DNA of 36,530 bases from Thermoplasmata archaeon (GTDB lineage Archaea; Thermoplasmatota; DTKX01; VGTL01): the NCBI GenBank assembly GCA_038851035.1, contig JAWCLH010000029.1:1-36530 (forward strand), read 5' to 3'. The position numbers were made by a program, and so were the translations under genes. The notes under the pieces are model-generated. The model was not told the origin of the DNA and searched no databases. It was given only the letters and a program-made list of their open reading frames with translations. Positions 13,473 to 36,210 of the stretch are shown here, one piece after another (within the stretch, counting starts at the first letter, position 1; each line of letters begins with the position of its first letter).

Positions 13473-16400
13473 ATGATGAGAGTATCCCGGCTGGTGTGGG
13501 CTCTGACACTTGCGACTCTGTTGCTTGCTTCAGGGCTCTGGCATCTCTCCCCGCCCGCCGCCGCCGAGGCCTGGATTCGGACCGACATGGGAACCCCCCC
13601 GGGCGGCAGCGTGCGGCTCAGGGGAGTGGCGGTTGGCGACGGGGACCGGGACGGAGCCAGCGAGGTCTATTTCACGGCGAGGCCCGGCGGTGGGCTCTAC
13701 CGGTACTCCTGGGACAGCCAGAGCTGGAGCTGGACTATCAAGAACGTCGCGGCTCCGGAGCTGAACGCCGACGCCGTCGGAATCGGCGATGGCGACGACG
13801 ACGGGAAGCTTGAACTCTACGCAACCGGTCTCATCCGGGGCGCTCCGCCGCTTCCGCGCGGCCGGATGGCCCTCTTCCAGCTCTACTACGACGGCTCCGG
13901 TTGGCACCAGGAGACTGTGGCGACCACAGCCTCCCCAGCCACGGGCAACGCCCTTGCAATCGGCGACGGGAACAACGACAGCAGGAAGGAGGTATTCAGC
14001 TGCGGCTCCGACGGCCATATCTACATGTACTACAAGAGCAACGAGTGGAACAGCCAGGACATCGGGAGCGCGGTACCGCCGCCCGGGCAGCCTGCGATCT
14101 CGATGGAGGGGCTGGCCGTGGGAGACGGGGACAACGACGGCTACCCGGAGGTCTACGGCTCCGCCGCGGACGGGAGGGTGTATCGGTTCAGCTACACGGG
14201 CTCAGCGTGGGTGAGGAGCGATGTGGGTGCGGGGGATACCTCCTCGCAGGGCTCCAGCATGGCCGCGCTCGCGATTGCGGACGCGGACGGTGACGGAAAG
14301 AACGAGGTCTATGGTGCGTCGTGGGCCAACGCGACGATATATATGTTCAAATACGACACCACAGCAGGAGCGTGGATAAGGACGGCCCTTGTCTCCCTCG
14401 GCAACATGGTCAACGCGCTCTGCCTCGCCGCCGGGGACGTCGACAGCGACGGCTTGGAGGAACTCTACGCCGGCGCAAGCAACAACCAGGTCTACAGGGT
14501 CTTCATAGACAGCGCCACGGGAAAATGGGCCTCGGCCTCCATAGGCTCGGGCAACGGCCCAGTCAGCGGGGTCGCGGTCGGGAGCGGCGCGGGCGTTCCC
14601 TCATCGGTCGAGGTCTACGCCGCATGCACCGATGGCCACGGTTACCAGTTCCTTCTGGACAGGTTCTCCCCGGCCAACCCGCGAGTCTGGAGCGATACCC
14701 ATCCCGAGCCCGGCAAGTGGTATCCGGCGAGCGTGGTCCATGTACTTTGGGAGGACGTGGGTCGGGACCCGAGCGGCATCGACGGCTACTCGATATCCTG
14801 GGACAACAACCCCGCGACGGTCCCGGACGCGGTGAAGGATTTTGAGGAGTCGGTGCACGACGCGACCAGCCCGGCGCTGAGCCCGGGGAAGTGGTACTTC
14901 CACATTCGGGCCCGAGACAACTCCCTGAACTGGAACGCCACCGCCACGCATTTCGGGCCCATATGCATCGGCACCGCCCCAGACACGGCCCCGCCAATAA
15001 TATCAAACGTGAGGGTAACGGGAATCAGTGACAGGCTGGCCGTGGTAAGCTGGAACACGAACGAGCCCTCGGACGGTCTCGTGGAATACGGCACCGACAC
15101 CGGCTACGGACTTTCCGTCTCGGACCCCGGATTTTTCCTGGAGCACAGTCTGACCCTCACCGGCCTGAGTCCCTCGACCTTATACCACTTCCGAGTGAGC
15201 TCGAGGGATGCGAGCGGCAACGGTCCCTCGTACAGCGAGGACATGACCTTCACGACCCTTGCCTCGCCCGACCTGACACCCCCGGTGATATCAAACGTCA
15301 AGGTCACGGGAATCACTGACAGGCTGGCGGTGGTGACATGGGAGACCGACGAACCCGCTGACAGCATGGTGGAGTGGGGCCCGACCCCGTCATACGGCGC
15401 ATCAACCTCGGATGTGAAGCTCGTCCTCCTCCACGAGCTGACCCTGAGCGGCCTGGAGCCCTCGACAATCTACCATTTCCGCGTGGGCTCCAAGGATACG
15501 AGCGGGAACGGGCCGTCTTACAGTGAGGATCTGAGCTTCACAACCCTCGCGTCGCCCGACACAGACCCGCCCCACATAATGAATTTGAGGGTCGAGGGTG
15601 TGACGGGGTCATCGGCGATCGTCCTCTGGGAGACCGACGAGCCCGCCGACAGCTTCGTGGAATACGGCCAGACATCGTCCTACGGCTTGAGCGCTGCGGA
15701 CAGGAGCTATGTTCTTGTCCACAGCGTGGCATTGCTGGGGCTCTCGCCGGGGGTCTCCTACCACCTGCGCGTCATATCCGCCGACCCGAGCGGGAACAAG
15801 GGCTACAGCGAGGACCTGAGCTTCAGGTCCAACGCCACGCCCTCGGCACCCGACACAACGCCGCCCGTGATATCGGGCCTGACGGTGAGCGGCGTCTCGG
15901 ACACGAGGGCCGTCGTCCTGTGGAGCACGGACGAGTTCGCCGACAGCGAGGTCGAGTACGGGACCGACACCGCGTACGGCCTCAGGGCGTCGGACCCATC
16001 GCTCACGACCATTCACAGCGTGGTCCTGCAGGGTCTGAAGCCCTCGACCGAGTACCACCTGAGGGTGAAGTCCACCGATGCGGCCGGGAACGGACCCGCA
16101 GTCAGTGGGGACGTGAGCTTCTGGACCGCGGGCAGTCCCGACACCACGGCGCCTATGATATCGGACATCAGGGTCGTAAACGTCACGTCAACCACTGCCA
16201 CAATCCTGTGGAGGACCAGCGAGCCCTCCAACAGCTTCGTAGAGTGGGGCAACAGCACGGCCTATGGCAGGAGCATCTTCTCAAGCCTCTATGTCCTCGA
16301 GCACGCCATCGTTCTGACAGGGCTGAAGCCCGGCACCCTCTACCATTTCAGGGTCTCGTCCACCGACCCGGCCGGGAACAAGGGGGGCCCGAGCGCGGAC

Positions 16401-16943
16401 CAGAGCTTCAGAACCTCAGGAGGGACCTCTGCTCCGGCCGTGACAACATCCTCGTTCCCGTGGTGGCTCGTGGCGCTCCTCCTTGCAGTGCTGGTCTTCA
16501 TTGTTGCAGCCGCCGTTCTGCTGGGGAGGAGGGCCCCGCCGGCGAGAGAGACGGGCCCGGTGCCGCCGGAGCCCCCGTCCGCCGGATGGGAGGAGGAAGA
16601 GGGCGTGGGCGGCGCGGGCGGGACCGGGGGGTTCGCGGGCTCGGACGCTGAGGAGCCCGAAGTGCTCCAGATGGATGGCGCGGCCGCGCCGGCGGCGGGC
16701 GGTGGAGCCCCGAGTAGCGGGGCCCCTCTCCAGACCCCCGGCGAGAGCCTACCGGTCTACCCGGGGCCCGGAATTCCGGCGAGCGTGGAACGGCTCCCGA
16801 GCCAGACGTCACCCCCATCCCCGCGCCGCATCAGGTGCCAGGCCTGCGGGACCAGCTTCCCTGTTTATGGTGGCGGAACGCAGAGGGTCACCTGTCCCGG
16901 ATGCGGGAGGACAGGAGTCTTCAGAGGCTCTGCTGGGGGATAG
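13473..16943 (+). CDS. Giant surface protein: beta-propeller, five FN3 repeats, TM, zinc ribbon
   Basis: 1156 residues. A signal peptide (~1-32, VWALTLATLLLASGLWHLS) is followed by about seven FG-GAP/VCBS-like propeller blades (~40-400), each with a calcium-type loop such as GDGDRDGASEVYF, GDGDDDGKLELYA, GDGDNDGYPEVYG and DADGDGKNEVYG. A linker domain (~400-500) leads to five fibronectin-type-III-like repeats from ~504 to ~988, each opening with a TxPxIS strand, an EPADSxVEYG element and a LxPxTxYHFRV strand. A TM helix (WWLVALLLAVLVFIVAAAVL, ~995-1018) is followed by a Gly/Ala/Pro-rich linker and a C-terminal zinc ribbon (CQACG...CPGCG, ~1120-1150) that should be cytosolic. The start is ATG 13473 after a purine-rich GAGGAG. 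It probably senses or binds at the cell surface; the ligand is unknown. Confidence 0.87.
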   Translation: MMRVSRLVWALTLATLLLASGLWHLSPPAAAEAWIRTDMGTPPGGSVRLRGVAVGDGDRDGASEVYFTARPGGGLYRYSWDSQSWSWTIKNVAAPELNADAVGIGDGDDDGKLELYATGLIRGAPPLPRGRMALFQLYYDGSGWHQETVATTASPATGNALAIGDGNNDSRKEVFSCGSDGHIYMYYKSNEWNSQDIGSAVPPPGQPAISMEGLAVGDGDNDGYPEVYGSAADGRVYRFSYTGSAWVRSDVGAGDTSSQGSSMAALAIADADGDGKNEVYGASWANATIYMFKYDTTAGAWIRTALVSLGNMVNALCLAAGDVDSDGLEELYAGASNNQVYRVFIDSATGKWASASIGSGNGPVSGVAVGSGAGVPSSVEVYAACTDGHGYQFLLDRFSPANPRVWSDTHPEPGKWYPASVVHVLWEDVGRDPSGIDGYSISWDNNPATVPDAVKDFEESVHDATSPALSPGKWYFHIRARDNSLNWNATATHFGPICIGTAPDTAPPIISNVRVTGISDRLAVVSWNTNEPSDGLVEYGTDTGYGLSVSDPGFFLEHSLTLTGLSPSTLYHFRVSSRDASGNGPSYSEDMTFTTLASPDLTPPVISNVKVTGITDRLAVVTWETDEPADSMVEWGPTPSYGASTSDVKLVLLHELTLSGLEPSTIYHFRVGSKDTSGNGPSYSEDLSFTTLASPDTDPPHIMNLRVEGVTGSSAIVLWETDEPADSFVEYGQTSSYGLSAADRSYVLVHSVALLGLSPGVSYHLRVISADPSGNKGYSEDLSFRSNATPSAPDTTPPVISGLTVSGVSDTRAVVLWSTDEFADSEVEYGTDTAYGLRASDPSLTTIHSVVLQGLKPSTEYHLRVKSTDAAGNGPAVSGDVSFWTAGSPDTTAPMISDIRVVNVTSTTATILWRTSEPSNSFVEWGNSTAYGRSIFSSLYVLEHAIVLTGLKPGTLYHFRVSSTDPAGNKGGPSADQSFRTSGGTSAPAVTTSSFPWWLVALLLAVLVFIVAAAVLLGRRAPPARETGPVPPEPPSAGWEEEEGVGGAGGTGGFAGSDAEEPEVLQMDGAAAPAAGGGAPSSGAPLQTPGESLPVYPGPGIPASVERLPSQTSPPSPRRIRCQACGTSFPVYGGGTQRVTCPGCGRTGVFRGSAGG
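14982..16425 (+). repeat. Five tandem FN3-like coding repeats of about 285 bases
   Basis: The repeats begin near 14982, 15267, 15558, 15855 and 16140. The first two are the most alike at DNA level (shared stretches around 15010-15050 and 15295-15340), suggesting recent duplication; the others have diverged more. Confidence 0.75.
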
Positions 16944-27540: not shown

Positions 27541-27594
27541 ATTAACATAAATTTGAATCAATTAAATATTAATTTTGGTCAGTACCACAATAAA

Positions 27595-27624: not shown

Positions 27625-30600
27625 ATGAAACCTGGCGGACACAACATAGCCGCGAGAAGCACCGCGGGGGGCATCGCGAGAAAGAGGACTTGGATAACTA
27701 CGAGAGGCCTTCACGAAGCTCACTCCATCCGCTGGGCCCGCCGCAGGGCTGCGGCCGCACTTCTTTTCCTATCCCTTCTCGTCCTTCCCAGTGCGAGCGC
27801 GGCTGGAGCTCAGGAGCCCCGGCAGGGCGTGAATTCGGCGCCCGTGGGAGGGGAGAGCTGTCCGGGCGGCTCAGGCGTGCCCTCCTTCTATGTTGATTCG
27901 TCGCGTGTGGAGCCAAAATTCTGGGTTGAGCCGGACCCCTATATACCCCCGACTCCCACCTCGACGCTCGAGAGTCGCTCCACCGGCGGCTACGCGGTTC
28001 TGATGGCCATAAACGATTACCCTGGCTCGCCCCTCCAGGGCTGCATCAGCGACATCACCGCAATAAGGGACAGGCTAGTCAACACCTACGGGTGGGACAC
28101 TAGGAACATTCACTTCGTAACCGACTCCGCCGTAACCCCCGACAGAATTGTCCAGGAGATAAGGTGGCTCGCCTCTGTCGCCGAGCCAGGGAGCCAGGCC
28201 ATATTCTCATTCAGCGGCCACGGGAGCACGGGCGTGATTTACGCCTACCCGATGAACGCCGTCAGCGACGACACGATCGCCGCTGAGCTGAAGAAGCTGA
28301 ACTCGACCGAGAACATCTGCATCTTCGATTCCTGCCATTCGGGCTCTTGCACCGAGGTCAACATCACCATCCCTCCCTTCATCTCAATGATGGCCTGCGA
28401 GGCCAACGAGCTTGCATCAGACGGCAACACATTCACCAAGGCATGGGTCGAGGGCTTGGGTAAGACCGAGTGGGGAAATGTAGAGGAGGCATTCGCCTAC
28501 GCCTACAATAAGATTCAGGGCTGGCAACACCCGGTGATGTGGGACAATGTCCCGGGCAACATGCTCCTCGGCAGGAAGCCGCCTGTAATTGCTCCCCTGC
28601 CCGAGCCCTCTGCTCCGGAGGACACGGCTATAATAATCTGTCTCACGCCCTATGAATCAGACCCCGTGGACGGCCACGCCAGCCTCACTTGGAGCGTTGA
28701 GCGCTGGGACCCCCTTGCCGTGAAGGCAATCACAGGGCAGGGGAGCGCCGACGACACCCTTACTTTTCAACCAGTGGAAAATTTCTGTGGAAGGACCAAC
28801 GTTACACTAGTTCTCCGCAACGGGGCAGGTCGGACCGCGCGCGCAGTTATGAACCTGACTTGGACGCCTGTGAATGACCCACCCGTTGTGACCGGCCTCG
28901 ACAGGATATCGCCCGTAGTCGAGAGGACAAAGGGGGTCAAAATAATCGTCTACGGCTCCGACCCGGACAACGCGGGTCCAGAGCTCTCGCTGGGGTTCGA
29001 GTACAGGCTGGCCGGAGGCAGCTGGACCTCCGGCGACTTCGAGTGGTCCTTCGTGACCAACCGTTGGGAGCTGCTTTTCGTTCCGCCGGCCAAATGTCCC
29101 CTCGGACAGGCGGACGTCAGGGCTAGGCTGCGCGACGGCGAGGGCTGGGGTGAATGGACCATTGCCAGCGGTCTGGTCGAGGTCGCCAACGCGCCCCCGC
29201 GCGTCGACGCGGTCCGTCCATCCGCGCCGACCGTACGCAGACTCCAGCCGCTGGTCCTCACCGTGGAGGGCGCTGACCCCGAAAACCCTCTGGAGCTCCT
29301 CACCTGCGAACTCGAGCTCAGGCACCGGGACGAGCCATTTTGGTCCCGCCTCACGGGCGCAGAGCTCGACGGCCGCTCCTGGAGGCTGACCTTCACCCCG
29401 TCGGCCCGTGCGTCCCTCGGTCCCTACGACGTGAGGGCACGTTTAAGGGATGCAGACGGCATGAGCGGGCGCTGGAGGGAGGCCTGGGAGGCCTTCTCGG
29501 TTGAGAACGCTATGCCCTCGGTTGATTCCATCGAGTTGTCCACGTCTAGGGTGGAGAGGGGAGGGAGGGCGACGGTGATTGTGAGGGGAGGGGACGTCGA
29601 GGACCCGAGGACGGCAGTGCTCTGCGACCTCCAGTGCCGGGGACCCGGCGGCGAGTGGTCGAGGCTCGAAGGGGTGGAGGTCAGGGGGGACCACTGGGAG
29701 GTGCTCTTCGCACCCAGCCCGAAGTCTAAGACGGGGAGCTATTCCTTTAGAGTTCTTCTGAAAGACTCCAACGGCCTCATCAGCGAATGGCTCTACAGCA
29801 ACGATAGCCTCGAGGTCGTAAACAGCCCGCCAACGGTGCTGGGAATTAACCTCTCCGGAAGCTCCGTGCTTCGCACTCAAAATCTGACCCTCACGATATC
29901 TGGCAGAGACCTTGAAAGCAAAACCTGGGAACTCAGGTGCGAGGTCGAGCAGAGGCTTGAGGGCGGGGGCTGGTCCGGGACTTTTCTAACCAAGCCGGAG
30001 CTCGACGGGAGGAATGGGACGTGGCACTGCAAGTTCACACCCCCCGCCTCCGCGCCCGTCGGGAGGTACTGTTTCAGAGCAAGGCTGCGCGACACCGACG
30101 GCGACTATAGCGCATGGATGGAATACGCGGGCAGGGTGGAGGTTATAAATAATCGTCCCTCCGCGGGGATCTCGCCCCTTCCGCAGGTTGTCAACGAGGG
30201 GACGGAGTTAATCTTCGATGCATCAGCGTCCTTTGACATTGAATCCGAGCTCGATTACCGCTGGAGTTTCGGCGACGGCACCCATGCAAGAGGGGAGGTT
30301 GTGAGGCACGTATACACAAGGGGAGGGGCTCGGACGGTGACCCTCACTGTGACGGATGGCGACGGCGAGACCAACACCGCCACCGTCAGACTCAGGGTCA
30401 ATGCCCTTCCGTTTGCCGCCGCGACCTACAGCCAGCCCAGCGGTAGTAGCTTGAAGGTCAGGTTCGACCCCTCCCTCTCCTCCGACCCGGAGGGCGGGGC
30501 ACTTGAGTACGAGTGGGACTTCGACATCACCGTGGACAGCGATGGGGACGGGGACCCAGACAACGACGTCGACTCCACCGCCGGAGCACCCGAGCATTTC

Positions 30601-31293
30601 TACAAGAGAGAAGGCACCTACAGGATCCGCTTGACTGTGAAGGACGGGGAGGGCGGTGTCTCCTCGGTGGTAATCGAGGTCAGGGTGAGACTTGAGGAAA
30701 AGAAATCCTGGGCGCTACTCAACCCCGCGTTTCTGGGACTCGCACTGGGAGCGGCTGTTGGGATAGCGGGATACGCGGCTGTTAGGCGCAGGAGGCGCGA
30801 ATCGGAATTGACAGAGGAGAGGAAAGCCGATAACGCGACGGCTCTGGATGGCAGCGCCACCCTGCTGCCGGAAAAGGCGCAGTACGGCGTGGAGACAGGC
30901 TCGGGACCGGGGACCGCCGGGTGCGCGGGACCGACGGTGGCCGGTCCGCTTGAGGAGTCATATACTCTCGCCAACCCAGAAACGCTCTACATCCAGGGAC
31001 CGGAGGCGTGGGAGGGGGCAGGCGCCGCGCCGTTCCACCAGAGGCCGCCGGAGCCTGCGGAGGGCTGGGGCCCCGTCTGGCCGGAGGCACCGAGGTACGA
31101 CACTCCCGTCGAGGAGGTTGCCGGAGCCGGTCCGCCGGCGGAGGTAGGGTCATGTCCGGCTGAGCGGTATCCGTCTCCGGAGAGGAGCGCGTCTCCGGTG
31201 CACGCGCGGCCCCTGCCCCCTCAGACTCCGTCAGAGGCGGCACGCACCATTGAGCTCTCCGAGATTCTCAGGAGGCTCGAGGAGCTCAGATAA
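27625..31293 (+). CDS. Surface-anchored caspase-like protease with Ig-like and PKD repeats
   Basis: 1222 residues from ATG 27625. A signal peptide (~38-60, AAAALLFLSLLVLPSASAA) has an unusually long basic lead. The caspase/C14 domain (~121-317) opens with GGYAVLMAINDYP and carries the catalytic pair His199 (FSFSGHGS) and Cys237 (FDSCHSGS). A cadherin/Ig-like region (~320-415) leads to four ~95-residue repeats that contain RARLRDxxG and end in VNxPP-type turns. Two PKD domains follow (YRWSFGDGT; YEWDFDITVDSDGDGDPDND). A TM helix lies at ~1035-1055 (AFLGLALGAAVGIAGYA), then RRRRR and a ~150-residue Pro/Gly/Glu tail ending in an amphipathic helix, LSEILRRLEELR. The protease should act outside the cell. 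Metacaspase relatives cut after Arg/Lys; whether that holds here is unknown. Confidence 0.88.
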   Translation: MKPGGHNIAARSTAGGIARKRTWITTRGLHEAHSIRWARRRAAAALLFLSLLVLPSASAAGAQEPRQGVNSAPVGGESCPGGSGVPSFYVDSSRVEPKFWVEPDPYIPPTPTSTLESRSTGGYAVLMAINDYPGSPLQGCISDITAIRDRLVNTYGWDTRNIHFVTDSAVTPDRIVQEIRWLASVAEPGSQAIFSFSGHGSTGVIYAYPMNAVSDDTIAAELKKLNSTENICIFDSCHSGSCTEVNITIPPFISMMACEANELASDGNTFTKAWVEGLGKTEWGNVEEAFAYAYNKIQGWQHPVMWDNVPGNMLLGRKPPVIAPLPEPSAPEDTAIIICLTPYESDPVDGHASLTWSVERWDPLAVKAITGQGSADDTLTFQPVENFCGRTNVTLVLRNGAGRTARAVMNLTWTPVNDPPVVTGLDRISPVVERTKGVKIIVYGSDPDNAGPELSLGFEYRLAGGSWTSGDFEWSFVTNRWELLFVPPAKCPLGQADVRARLRDGEGWGEWTIASGLVEVANAPPRVDAVRPSAPTVRRLQPLVLTVEGADPENPLELLTCELELRHRDEPFWSRLTGAELDGRSWRLTFTPSARASLGPYDVRARLRDADGMSGRWREAWEAFSVENAMPSVDSIELSTSRVERGGRATVIVRGGDVEDPRTAVLCDLQCRGPGGEWSRLEGVEVRGDHWEVLFAPSPKSKTGSYSFRVLLKDSNGLISEWLYSNDSLEVVNSPPTVLGINLSGSSVLRTQNLTLTISGRDLESKTWELRCEVEQRLEGGGWSGTFLTKPELDGRNGTWHCKFTPPASAPVGRYCFRARLRDTDGDYSAWMEYAGRVEVINNRPSAGISPLPQVVNEGTELIFDASASFDIESELDYRWSFGDGTHARGEVVRHVYTRGGARTVTLTVTDGDGETNTATVRLRVNALPFAAATYSQPSGSSLKVRFDPSLSSDPEGGALEYEWDFDITVDSDGDGDPDNDVDSTAGAPEHFYKREGTYRIRLTVKDGEGGVSSVVIEVRVRLEEKKSWALLNPAFLGLALGAAVGIAGYAAVRRRRRESELTEERKADNATALDGSATLLPEKAQYGVETGSGPGTAGCAGPTVAGPLEESYTLANPETLYIQGPEAWEGAGAAPFHQRPPEPAEGWGPVWPEAPRYDTPVEEVAGAGPPAEVGSCPAERYPSPERSASPVHARPLPPQTPSEAARTIELSEILRRLEELR

Positions 31294-31334: not shown

Positions 31335-32747
31335 ATGCAAGGACCGGTTTTCGCGGCGCCCTCGGCCCTCACCGCCCTGATGCTCCTCCTGCTCGCTTCT
31401 GCCATCGCGCCCGGCGCCTCGGCGGCAATTGGGGCTGGCTCGACGCTCAGGGTCGAGACCCAGACCCAAATGCTACATCGCGAGGGCGGGGGGTACCTCA
31501 CTTGGGAGCTCTCCGGGCCCGCGGTGGTCGAGGTCAGGCGGTGCATAGACGAGCACATGGGCGACGGGGACGGCAACATCACGCAGCTCGAGGCCCAGGC
31601 CTACACCAACGAGATAGAGTCGCTTCTGGAGAACTACAAATCCTACGGCTCGGCGAGAATCATAAGGGTAGCGCTCCTGACCAAGGACATCAACGCCGAT
31701 ACTAAGGGCTTGATGGGAACTGCGAACTCGACTGCCCCCATAACAATTCACTTCTACTTCAACTCCAACCTTAGGCCCGAGGGCACCACGGTCAACTTCG
31801 GCGACACGACGATTCCATTTGCGCTCTTCCAAGCGCTCCCGGACGAGTCGAACCGCACCTTCGCGGGCCGGCTGGACTGGACCCACAGGGAAATCGTCGT
31901 CGGGCTGGCGAGCTTCTCGGGCATCATGAGGGGGCAGGGAGAGCTGACGAGGCTTCGCGCTCCCGGTGCGGAGTTGATTCTGTACCATCTCTCGCTGGAG
32001 GGGGGACAGAGGTCCTTCGACGAGGCCCGGTTCGACACATTCAACCCGCTCCAGTGCTCTCTGGAGCTCTTCATCGTGGTGTGCGTGTTTGGCTTGGTGG
32101 CGCTACACCTTCCAAGGCGCTACATGAAGGACTTGGGGATGAGGAGAGTCGGGTGGCTCCATCTGCTCGTAATTCTCTTGGTTGCGCTGCTCCTTTTACT
32201 TTTCTTTCTCGGCGCGGACGCTGTGGCGATATGGGTCCTCTCGCCGCTCTTCATGGTCGTGAGCTGGGTCCTCTCCCACCAGATATACGCAAAGAAATGG
32301 AGGGGCATCGCGAAGCCGCTGGCCCCTGCGGGCTCAGTGATTGTGGGGACCCCGGCCGGGCCGGCGCTGGAGGCCCCGGCCTTGGGTCAGCCGCTCCCGG
32401 GCTTCGAGCCGGTCAGGAGCTGGGAGCCTGCCCCGCCGCCCGAGTTCCCGTCGGGACCCGCGCCTCACTCACCTCTGCCACCTCAACAGCCCTCCGGATA
32501 TACACGGCCACCAGGACAAGAAAATCCCCCGCCTCCCCGCCCACCCGAGGCCTTTCCTTCTCCTCCATCGCCCCCGCCCCTCCAGCCATCACTGCCGGAG
32601 AGTCCCTCCACGGCCCCTCTTGGCGCCGCTGTGAGGTCAATGAGGTGCCCGAAATGCAGGAGCGTCTTCGATTTCCCGGACGACGGCCGGAGGCCCCTGC
32701 CGGTGAAATGCCCGGGGTGCGGGGCGGAGGGGGCGCTGAAGAAATGA
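31335..32747 (+). CDS. Membrane protein with EF-hand-like loop and C-terminal zinc ribbon
   Basis: 470 residues, 41 bases after the caspase gene and probably co-transcribed. A signal peptide (~10-31, LTALMLLLLASAIAPGASA) leads to a ~210-residue extracellular domain with an EF-hand-like calcium loop (GDGDGNITQLEAQ, ~76-88) and mixed beta strands. Hydrophobic helices lie at ~242-262, ~272-292 and ~295-315. A long Pro-rich linker (~322-432) ends in a zinc ribbon, MRCPKCRSVFDFPDD and VKCPGCGAEG (~437-466). I do not recognise the ectodomain. The plan (ectodomain, TM, Pro-rich linker, zinc ribbon) matches the giant protein at 13473. Start ATG 31335 overlaps a TATA-like TTATATG, so an internal start is possible, but only this start gives a full signal peptide. 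Confidence 0.8.
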   Translation: MQGPVFAAPSALTALMLLLLASAIAPGASAAIGAGSTLRVETQTQMLHREGGGYLTWELSGPAVVEVRRCIDEHMGDGDGNITQLEAQAYTNEIESLLENYKSYGSARIIRVALLTKDINADTKGLMGTANSTAPITIHFYFNSNLRPEGTTVNFGDTTIPFALFQALPDESNRTFAGRLDWTHREIVVGLASFSGIMRGQGELTRLRAPGAELILYHLSLEGGQRSFDEARFDTFNPLQCSLELFIVVCVFGLVALHLPRRYMKDLGMRRVGWLHLLVILLVALLLLLFFLGADAVAIWVLSPLFMVVSWVLSHQIYAKKWRGIAKPLAPAGSVIVGTPAGPALEAPALGQPLPGFEPVRSWEPAPPPEFPSGPAPHSPLPPQQPSGYTRPPGQENPPPPRPPEAFPSPPSPPPLQPSLPESPSTAPLGAAVRSMRCPKCRSVFDFPDDGRRPLPVKCPGCGAEGALKK

Positions 32748-34198: not shown

Positions 34199-34774
34199 TC
34201 ACTCCCCCCATCTTCTGTAGAGCCTGTTCTCGACCCCCAGCGCGTCCAGAACCCTTCCCACGACGAAGTCCACCAGCTCCCCGACGCTCGCGGGCCTTCC
34301 GTAGAACGCGGGACACGCCGGGAGGACCACCGCTCCCGCCTCCGAGAGAGTGGTCAGGGCGCGGAGGTGAATCGTGCTCAGGGGCGTCTCTCGCGGAACC
34401 AGGACGAGCCGGCGCCTCTCCTTCAGCGCCACCGAGGCCGCTCTGGTCACCAGATTGTCCGAGATTCCGCAGGCGATTTTTGAGGCCGTGGACATCGAGC
34501 AGGGGCAGATGACCATTCCATCGAACGGCCTGCTCCCAGACGCGATGGGCGCGTCCAGCTCGCTGTTCCTGTAGAGCCTCGTCGAGCGCCTCCTCAACTC
34601 CCGCGCGCCTAGGCCTGTCTCCAGCCTGAGAATTCTCAGGGCCTCCTCCGACACTATCGCGCTCTTCTCGCATTCGAGCGCCTCGAGCAGCCGGACGCCG
34701 TAGACGGCCCCGGAGGCCCCGGTCAGCGCTACGACGACGTGCGTCCCCCGGCTTCTCTCCCCCGCCGGCCTCAT
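34199..34774 (-). CDS. ubiX: Flavin prenyltransferase UbiX
   Basis: 191 residues. The N-terminal FMN-binding ALTGASGAVYGVRLLEAL is the family signature, followed by ICPCSMSTASKIACGISDNL (CPCSMxTxxxIAxGxxDNL, diagnostic) and LVLVPRETPLSTIHLRAL. It prenylates FMN with dimethylallyl (pyro)phosphate to make prFMN, the cofactor of UbiD decarboxylases. No UbiD is in this window. The ATG overlaps the upstream aminopeptidase stop (ATGA), so the two are translationally coupled, though their roles have no known link. Confidence 0.95.
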   Translation of the reverse strand: MRPAGERSRGTHVVVALTGASGAVYGVRLLEALECEKSAIVSEEALRILRLETGLGARELRRRSTRLYRNSELDAPIASGSRPFDGMVICPCSMSTASKIACGISDNLVTRAASVALKERRRLVLVPRETPLSTIHLRALTTLSEAGAVVLPACPAFYGRPASVGELVDFVVGRVLDALGVENRLYRRWGE

Positions 34775-36210
34775 CTCCCCTCCCCGAAAGCCTCGAAGAA
34801 CCTAGTGTAGGCCCTGACCGCGCAGAAGAGGTCCGCCTTGCTCGTCAGCTCCATGGGCGCGTGGAGGCTCAGGACGCAAGGCCCGAGGTCTACTACGTCC
34901 ATTCCATGCTCCGCGAGGAACTTGGCTATCGTCCCCCCTCCGCCCTCGTCCACCTTGCCTAGTTCCGCACTCTGCCAGGGTATTCTCGCGGCGTTCAGGA
35001 GCCTCCTTATCGCCCCCACGTACTCCGCGCTCGCGTCACTCGACTGGTACTTACCCCCGGACCCGGTGAATTTCGTCAGCACCACCCCGAAGCCCAGCCG
35101 CGCAGCATTAGAGGGCTCGTGGGCGTCCTTGAATATCGGGTCCAGGGCGGAGGTGGTGTCGGCCGAGAGGGCCGAGGAGCGCTCGAGCGCGCGTCTGAGT
35201 GCGCTCTCGGGTGCGTCACCTTCGGTTAGCTCGATGAGGCGCGCGGTGAAGGAGGCGAGGAGGCGGGACCGGGCGCTAGTGTTTCCCTCGCTCCCTATCT
35301 CTTCCTTGTCGAAGAAGAGCGCCGCGCAGGTCCTGCGAGGTCGCCCGAGGGAGCGAATCGCGGAAAGGGCGGCGAAGGCGCAAACGCGGTCGTCCTGCCC
35401 GTAGCCCAGCACGAGGGAGCGGTCAAGCCCCACCTCCCTCGATCTTCCGGCGGGGACGAGCTCGAGCTCTGCGCTCGCGAAGTCCTCCTCCATCATGCCG
35501 TATCTTCTGTGGAGAATATCAAGCACGAGCAGCTTTGTCCTGCTCTTCGCCTTTCTGTGACCGTCGATTGGATTGGTCGCCACAATCGCGTGCAGCTCCT
35601 CGCCCTTGAGCCCCTCCTCAAGGTGCCTCTTCGCCTGCGACTGCCTGTAGAGGTGCGGGGCGAGGTCCTCTATTGTGAAAACCGGGTCCCCTTCGTCCTC
35701 GCCGATGGAGACGTCGACCTCCCTCCCATCTTTCAGGACGACCCTCCCGTGGAGCGCGAGGGGAATCGTGGCCCACTGGTACTTCTTTATGCCCCCGTAG
35801 TAGTGGGTTCTGAAAAGAGCGATTCTGGTTTCCGACTCCTCGTGAAGGGGGTTCTGCTTCAGGTCGAGCCTCGGGGAGTCGATGTGAGAGGCGATGATGT
35901 TCAGGCCGCGCGAGGGCGGCTGCTCTCCGACAACAGCGAGCGCGGCGCACTTGTTCTTCCAGATAAAGTAGAGCCTCTCACCGGGACGCGCTGAGCGCGC
36001 CGAGTCAATTGGGGCGAAGCCGCTCTCCTGCGCGAACTTCCTTATCGCCGCCACGGCCTCGCGCTCCGTCTTGGCGGCGTCGAGGAAAGCCCTGTACTCG
36101 CCAGAGAGAGCCTCCGCCGCCTTTTTCTCCTTCTTTGAAAAATGGTCCCAGGCGGGCTCCCTCTTGAGCTCGAGCTTCTCGACTCCATCCGCTCTCGTTT
36201 TCCTGAGCAT
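34771..36210 (-). CDS. M18 family aminopeptidase
   Basis: 479 residues, typical for M18. Metal-site motifs: IASHIDSPRLDLKQNP (His109, Asp111), GYGQDDRVCAF (bridging Asp), FDKEEIGSEG (the catalytic Glu pair), SADTTSALDP and near the C-terminus SLHAPMELTSKADL (metal His). It is a cytosolic dinuclear-zinc (or cobalt) exopeptidase, in bacteria and yeast preferring acidic or hydrophobic N-termini, and assembles as a large tetrahedral dodecamer. The ATG at 36210 is chosen because nothing protein-like lies upstream. Two A/T boxes (around 36240 and 36296) could serve as promoters. Overlaps ubiX downstream. Confidence 0.93.
   Translation of the reverse strand: MLRKTRADGVEKLELKREPAWDHFSKKEKKAAEALSGEYRAFLDAAKTEREAVAAIRKFAQESGFAPIDSARSARPGERLYFIWKNKCAALAVVGEQPPSRGLNIIASHIDSPRLDLKQNPLHEESETRIALFRTHYYGGIKKYQWATIPLALHGRVVLKDGREVDVSIGEDEGDPVFTIEDLAPHLYRQSQAKRHLEEGLKGEELHAIVATNPIDGHRKAKSRTKLLVLDILHRRYGMMEEDFASAELELVPAGRSREVGLDRSLVLGYGQDDRVCAFAALSAIRSLGRPRRTCAALFFDKEEIGSEGNTSARSRLLASFTARLIELTEGDAPESALRRALERSSALSADTTSALDPIFKDAHEPSNAARLGFGVVLTKFTGSGGKYQSSDASAEYVGAIRRLLNAARIPWQSAELGKVDEGGGGTIAKFLAEHGMDVVDLGPCVLSLHAPMELTSKADLFCAVRAYTRFFEAFGEGR

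Follow-up and report, generated by a model that had tools for sequence, protein, structure and literature searches.

The window analysed here is a 36,530 nt stretch of contig JAWCLH010000029.1 (assembly GCA_038851035.1) from a Thermoplasmata archaeon, which carries on its forward strand a gene for a predicted caspase-type surface protease (Table 1). The original prediction of a signal peptide, a caspase fold with a His199/Cys237 dyad, immunoglobulin (Ig)-like and PKD repeats, a transmembrane (TM) helix and a cytosolic tail was borne out at the level of sequence by reading of the open reading frame (ORF), hydropathy, Pfam scans and a match of the isolated protease domain. As read from the sequence, the confirmed order is a signal-like segment, a C14 peptidase head, seven Ig/PKD-type domains, a single TM helix and a predicted cytosolic tail of approximately 170 residues. 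Hydropathy gave two strong hydrophobic segments, AAAALLFLSLLVLPSASAA near the N-terminus and another at approximately residues 1028–1054, and this topology, with an N-terminal segment and a C-terminal anchor, supports the extracellular display that had been proposed. The Cys/His pair was kept in most of the aligned domains. An in-frame TTG upstream of the ATG is the sole other common start codon ahead of the hydrophobic stretch.

Table 1. Features of the protease gene and of the gene downstream (ATG numbering unless stated)
Feature	Position	Strand	Basis and remarks
Caspase-type surface protease	27625..31293	+	1222 amino acids (aa) from ATG; 1246 aa if TTG at 27553 is the start
Signal-peptide-like hydrophobic segment AAAALLFLSLLVLPSASAA	27745..27813	+	Kyte-Doolittle, window 19, peak 2.02; counterpart in L017
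Linker ahead of protease domain	27889..27981	+	PKFWVEPxPYxPP kept in L017 (alignment)
Metacaspase-type C14 domain	27982..28569	+	Profile A1, 245.5 bits; PF00656; Yca1
Catalytic His199 codon (in SGHG)	28219..28221	+	His in 44/46 aligned domains
Catalytic Cys237 codon (in DSCHSG)	28333..28335	+	Cys in 43/46 aligned domains
Big_9 Ig-type domain	28579..28860	+	62 bits, cut-off 23.6
Four Ig-like tandem repeats of ~105 residues	28873..30147	+	Self-alignment; starts at residues 441, 546, 652 and 757 (TTG-numbered frame); six pairs with 30–47% identity, shuffle z 17–30
Two PKD domains	30148..30696	+	PKD_4, 120.5 bits, two stretches, above Pfam cut-off
C-terminal TM helix, basic residues after	30706..30786	+	Hydropathy; present in L017 too
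Cytosolic tail, Pro/Ala/Glu-rich, presumed disordered	30787..31290	+	Composition; absent in L017
Terminal docking-like helix RTIELSEILRRLEELR	31243..31290	+	Seen again in tails of further surface proteins of this class
Downstream co-oriented membrane protein (signal-like segment, ectodomain, TM segments, C-terminal zinc ribbon)	31335..32747	+	Adjacent in L017 too

A search for the same architecture in other genomes, as the original prediction had proposed, found it in an orthologue of a second genus, L017 (VGTL01000099; sequence of contig G001:C99), which has 53% identity over 998 residues and the same stalk, with the His/Cys dyad kept. Identity was highest in the caspase domain (70%), followed by Big_9 (59%), the PKD domains (52%) and the Ig repeats (48%). 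Rough ratios of nonsynonymous to synonymous substitution (dN/dS, NG86 method, dS approximately 1–2) were 0.23 for the caspase domain, 0.19 for Big_9, 0.49 for the Ig repeats and 0.33 for PKD, and these comparisons support purifying selection on the protease domain, with the head being the most conserved part by identity. Repeat analysis of the stalk at the DNA level was uninformative.

The metacaspase-type head

Neither the full-length Pfam scan of the protein nor a whole-genome search with PF00656 (Peptidase_C14) showed a C14 domain, but this apparent absence was overturned when the isolated domain matched PF00656 with 62.3 bits (E = 6.9e-17, cut-off 21.4), and both scans are taken as false negatives of the search filter. 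The best PDB sequence match of the isolated domain was the yeast metacaspase Yca1 (E = 2e-7), and profile A1 (12 rows) matched metacaspase-4 with E = 1.5e-25. On these sequence matches the head belongs to the C14 peptidases. The profile for the EACC1-associated type of caspase (NF047832) gave 27.9 bits against a curated value of 140, and gingipain-type Peptidase C25 (PF01364) had no match in the protein, the C25 matches of this genome being on other contigs. A plasmid search returned 134 records, all distant bacterial C14 matches of <60% identity.

Both dyad residues are invariant in the alignment underlying profile A1 (12/12), and a wider domain alignment was made from 49 matching ORFs, with four duplicate or cut copies left out; an Asp two residues ahead of the Cys was found in 38 of its 46 C14 domains. 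The S1 pocket of TbMCA2 is formed at positions Cys92, Asp95, Ser156 and Asp211, according to the available part of PMC4357240, and the counterparts of these positions, read through the alignment with Yca1, are the Cys and Asp of LQGCISD, the Ser of SGHG and the Asp of DSC. An acidic S1 pocket of the Arg/Lys type thus appears to be kept, via Yca1 rather than TbMCA2 itself, and since these residues appear to be kept, specificity for Arg/Lys is predicted and cleavage after Asp is not expected. The stretch from the Cys to the Phe of the p10 part (32 residues) has no Lys or Arg in either the protein or L017, with only one further such row among the 46, which makes activation by cleavage of this linker after a basic residue unlikely. 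Thirty-seven residues separate the His from the Cys, and the canonical acidic loop of the four-Asp calcium site is missing there in both proteins, so that dependence on calcium is doubtful; a DD pair is left in the protein, and DS in L017.

The head shares with the prokaryotic metacaspases and orthocaspases (MEROPS C14B) the C14 profile, the His/Cys dyad, the Asp two before the Cys and the predicted Arg/Lys pocket, but differs by a very compact domain without the acidic loop, the p20–p10 linker free of Lys and Arg, the Ig/PKD stalk and the outward-facing C-terminal anchor. Yca1 and metacaspase-1 of C. glabrata (PDB 4f6o and 7qp0), the best PDB sequence and Foldseek matches, are eukaryotic, contain the acidic insert between His and Cys, and have no surface stalk in these entries. 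The C25 and C11/C13 peptidases of clan CD described for sediment archaea are also extracellular, PKD-bearing and of clan CD chemistry, but belong to other catalytic families, and the available part of PMC6461988 describes no architecture for a C14 protein.

Predicted export of C14 proteins and companion surface proteases

Profile A1 matched in 105 of the 389 genomes of the phylum, presumably Thermoplasmatota (E up to 1e-5). Homologue loci were hand-picked from the matches listed, best first plus large frames, and are not a random sample; after removal of identical ORFs, 104 distinct homologous ORFs remained, of which 101 were complete at the 5′ end. An N-terminal hydrophobic segment was present in 95 of these 101 homologues among the matches listed, versus 105/240 other ORFs on the same loci, a count for which profile A1, built mostly from secreted-looking relatives, may favour secreted ones. 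Export therefore looks ordinary for the C14 proteins of this phylum, and the extracellular placement is not the exception that the original prediction took it to be, the more so as the available part of a 2012 survey already reported extracellular and membrane metacaspases of prokaryotes, with 5/114 archaeal genomes positive (PMC3501461). Likewise, C14B is listed among the expressed peptidases of Thermoprofundales in the accessible text of PMC6461988.

A hydrophobic segment C-terminal of the protease is much less common, being found in three of the 101 3′-complete homologues among the matches listed (L017, L156 and L161), with L156 and L161 each having two such segments after the protease. By hydropathy, an Ig/PKD stalk held by a single C-terminal anchor is rare, occurring only here and in L017 among the matches listed. 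PKD_4 was detected in 27 of 53 long sequences (the protein of the window and 52 homologues of at least 430 aa, with one frame of 3090 aa left out). In the open-licence literature, judged by titles and starts of abstracts, no stalked and C-terminally anchored archaeal C14 protein and no such tail motif was recognised. The 3090-aa frame (L068, 2324–11593, in G001) contains a degenerate caspase-like domain near its C-terminus, with Tyr/Ser at the dyad. The genome of the window also has a second C14 match on contig C21 (L067, 5637–6446), a short, exported-looking and weakly C13-like protein in which, by alignment, the dyad is replaced; it is possibly a pseudo-peptidase.

The same genome contains five C25 loci and 11 S8 (subtilisin-type) loci, with a C-terminal TM segment predicted from hydropathy in three and eight of these, respectively. 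The plan of signal, catalytic head and C-terminal TM segment was found in 11 of the 16 loci, and the six proteases with a C-terminal TM segment that were scanned have Ig, PKD, CARDB, cadherin or NPCBM-type stalk domains. Other proteases of this genome are thus built like the caspase, which is one of several heads on a common plan, and this points to extracellular proteolysis.

The terminal motif of the cytosolic tail

The least expected part of the protein is the motif at the end of its tail, which the original prediction had described as a short amphipathic helix that could bind a cytosolic partner. The tail does end in RTIELSEILRRLEELR as described, and its last 16 residues have counterparts in giant S8, C25 and beta-helix proteins from three genera of the class, located at the end of the cytosolic tail or close to it; in particular, they resemble the ends of S8 proteases L205 and L209 of the same genome and of beta-helix protein L107 of G002. 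Homology of whole tails was rejected, as beyond the last 25 residues alignments were not convincingly above shuffles. A regular expression for the motif matched 0/427 ORFs on loci of other orders. Profile A6, made from the four tails and containing no G001 sequence, was searched over five genomes of the class and gave six new matches; three of these, all from G001, fall within the final 17 residues of frames of 1387, 1416 and 1660 aa; these frames have a C-terminal TM segment and a Pro-rich tail, and comprise one beta-helix, one S8 and one Ig/PKD protein. With profile A7, made from seven tails and with a match read-out covering all rows but L263, one of eight new matches within the class is in an anchored tail, that of C25 protease L264 (743–5662, contig G001:C88). 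Beyond the class A7 gave 23 matches in the 389 genomes at E up to 0.05, which is about chance, and none of these was in a frame of at least 900 aa. The caspase copy is the weakest of the three copies of its own genome in A7 (E = 0.003).

Orthologues differ in the motif, which would mean gain or loss: among the caspases it is present in the genus of the window and not in L017, while the C25 proteases show the reverse. The tail of L264 has the order zinc ribbon, helix, zinc ribbon, whereas its orthologue in the genome of the window (L195, 3096–7976; 47% identity over 1354 residues) has two zinc ribbons without the helix. Tails ending in zinc ribbons are also seen in the FN3 protein at 13473–16943, in the product of 31335–32747 and in C25 proteases L195 and L196. 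We infer that the tail motif serves for docking in the cytosol and shifts from protein to protein, and its recurrence on further giant surface proteins lends the docking idea more weight than it received earlier. In FtsZ and SSB a disordered linker ends in a conserved short binding peptide at the C-terminus. The tail studied here resembles these in its tether and terminal motif, but is predicted to lie on the cytosolic side, in giant surface proteins that are unrelated to one another. A tentative extension, which we regard as possible though rather doubtful, is that the helix, of approximate form E-(I/L)-(D/E)-(D/E)-I-(L/M)-x-R-L, is a docking tag that can be exchanged between proteins and that together with the zinc-ribbon tails gathers surface proteases in patches on a cytosolic scaffold. 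If the motif does bind something, it would offer a handle on how archaea organise their large surface enzymes.

Proposed function, alternatives and neighbouring genes

Going by the domain order, dyad, S1-type residues, anchor, protease set and recurrence of the tail motif, we consider it probable that the protein is a C14 endopeptidase of the metacaspase type, anchored in the membrane and facing outward, which cuts external proteins with a preference for Arg/Lys and docks inside the cell by its tail. Export would put the head outside the cell, with the seven beta-sandwich domains keeping it off the membrane and one helix anchoring it, and cleavage would most likely be after Arg or Lys, without prior cleavage of the linker. 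The enzyme may act on external proteins beside the gingipain-type (C25) and subtilisin-type (S8) surface proteases, with nutrition as its first role and trimming of the cell's own surface proteins as the second. Inside the cell, a disordered tether would display the terminal helix, which may dock to a cytosolic partner common to other surface proteins of the class.

Besides the make-up of profile A1, several observations weigh against parts of this interpretation. The signal-peptide call has hydropathy as its basis, and the n-region ahead of the AAAALLFLSLLVLPSASAA core is unusually long at approximately 40 residues, which leaves the true start of the ORF unsettled. Structure prediction, proposed earlier as a check, gave an AlphaFold model of the protease of low confidence (pLDDT 42.8, two-row alignment); Foldseek on this model ranked metacaspases first (best E = 6.3e-5), which points only weakly to the predicted fold. 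For the tail, the computed hydrophobic moment of RTIELSEILRRLEELR is a modest 0.36, an ordinary value reached by 47% of shuffles, and L017 has a tail of only 15–20 residues without a similar motif, which indicates that the enzyme can do without it. The regular expression was written post hoc, and its matches in 4/152 ORFs come from the very sequences used to build it. The other three of the six new A6 matches are internal, in frames without a TM segment, and within the class the remaining seven of the eight new A7 matches lie outside anchored tails.

A less probable yet credible alternative is that the protease serves as a maturation enzyme or sheddase, which would process surface proteins of its own cell (S-layer, other giant proteases) at Arg/Lys sites instead of foreign food. 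The long stalk and tethering would hold it near neighbouring surface proteins, its protease domain is strongly constrained, and the narrow specificity of metacaspases, as described in the available part of PMC4357240, would suit such a role. However, neither a motif marking substrates nor a gene for a dedicated substrate was found, and the conserved neighbour at 31335–32747 also occurs in three class genomes that gave no caspase match.

Caspase relatives in archaea are usually discussed as cell-death enzymes. Programmed cell death or fratricide at the surface was proposed for extracellular prokaryotic metacaspases in the 2012 survey, within its available part (PMC3501461), but a death, competition or predation protease directed at neighbouring cells or at its own cell seems quite improbable here: the Pfam scan recognised no immunity, toxin-delivery or signalling domain in the protein, its neighbours include a primase and an M18 aminopeptidase, and with its C25 and S8 sets the genome resembles that of a proteolytic generalist. 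The earlier suggestion of predation or competition likewise found no specific support, and no gene for immunity or delivery was recognised among the adjacent genes. It is also improbable that the protein is a receptor-like transducer, in which the outer head and stalk sense and the tail signals; the length of the tail, the recurrence of its terminal helix and the zinc ribbons ending other tails of the class would fit, but L017 keeps the head while being almost tail-less, and no domain for signalling turned up in the tail in the Pfam scan. Stalk domains of this kind are typical of adhesins, but an inactive adhesin that merely retains a caspase fold is very improbable, since both the dyad and the S1-type residues are preserved and the head is the best conserved part. 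With the sampled C14 proteins of the phylum looking exported, and one lineage using the same plan for its subtilisins, gingipains and caspase, extracellular proteolysis becomes the first hypothesis for archaeal C14 proteins.

The product of 31335–32747 has 51% identity to the corresponding neighbour in L017. Its homologues are present in 21/389 genomes of the phylum, including the class genomes G002–G004, which have no caspase match, and for this reason a dedicated two-gene system with the caspase was dropped. An AlphaFold model of this product was of low confidence (two-row alignment) and was not used; by reading, its ectodomain contains a conserved GDGDGNIT loop resembling the calcium loop of EF-hands or dockerins. 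A similar plan is seen in the protein of 13473–16943, a giant FN3/FG-GAP surface protein with a signal-like segment, a C-terminal TM segment and a cytosolic zinc ribbon. On the minus strand, 34199–36210 contains the M18 aminopeptidase gene followed by a smaller ORF, which, from its L017 copy, we take to resemble UbiX; similar genes were read in the same order in L017.

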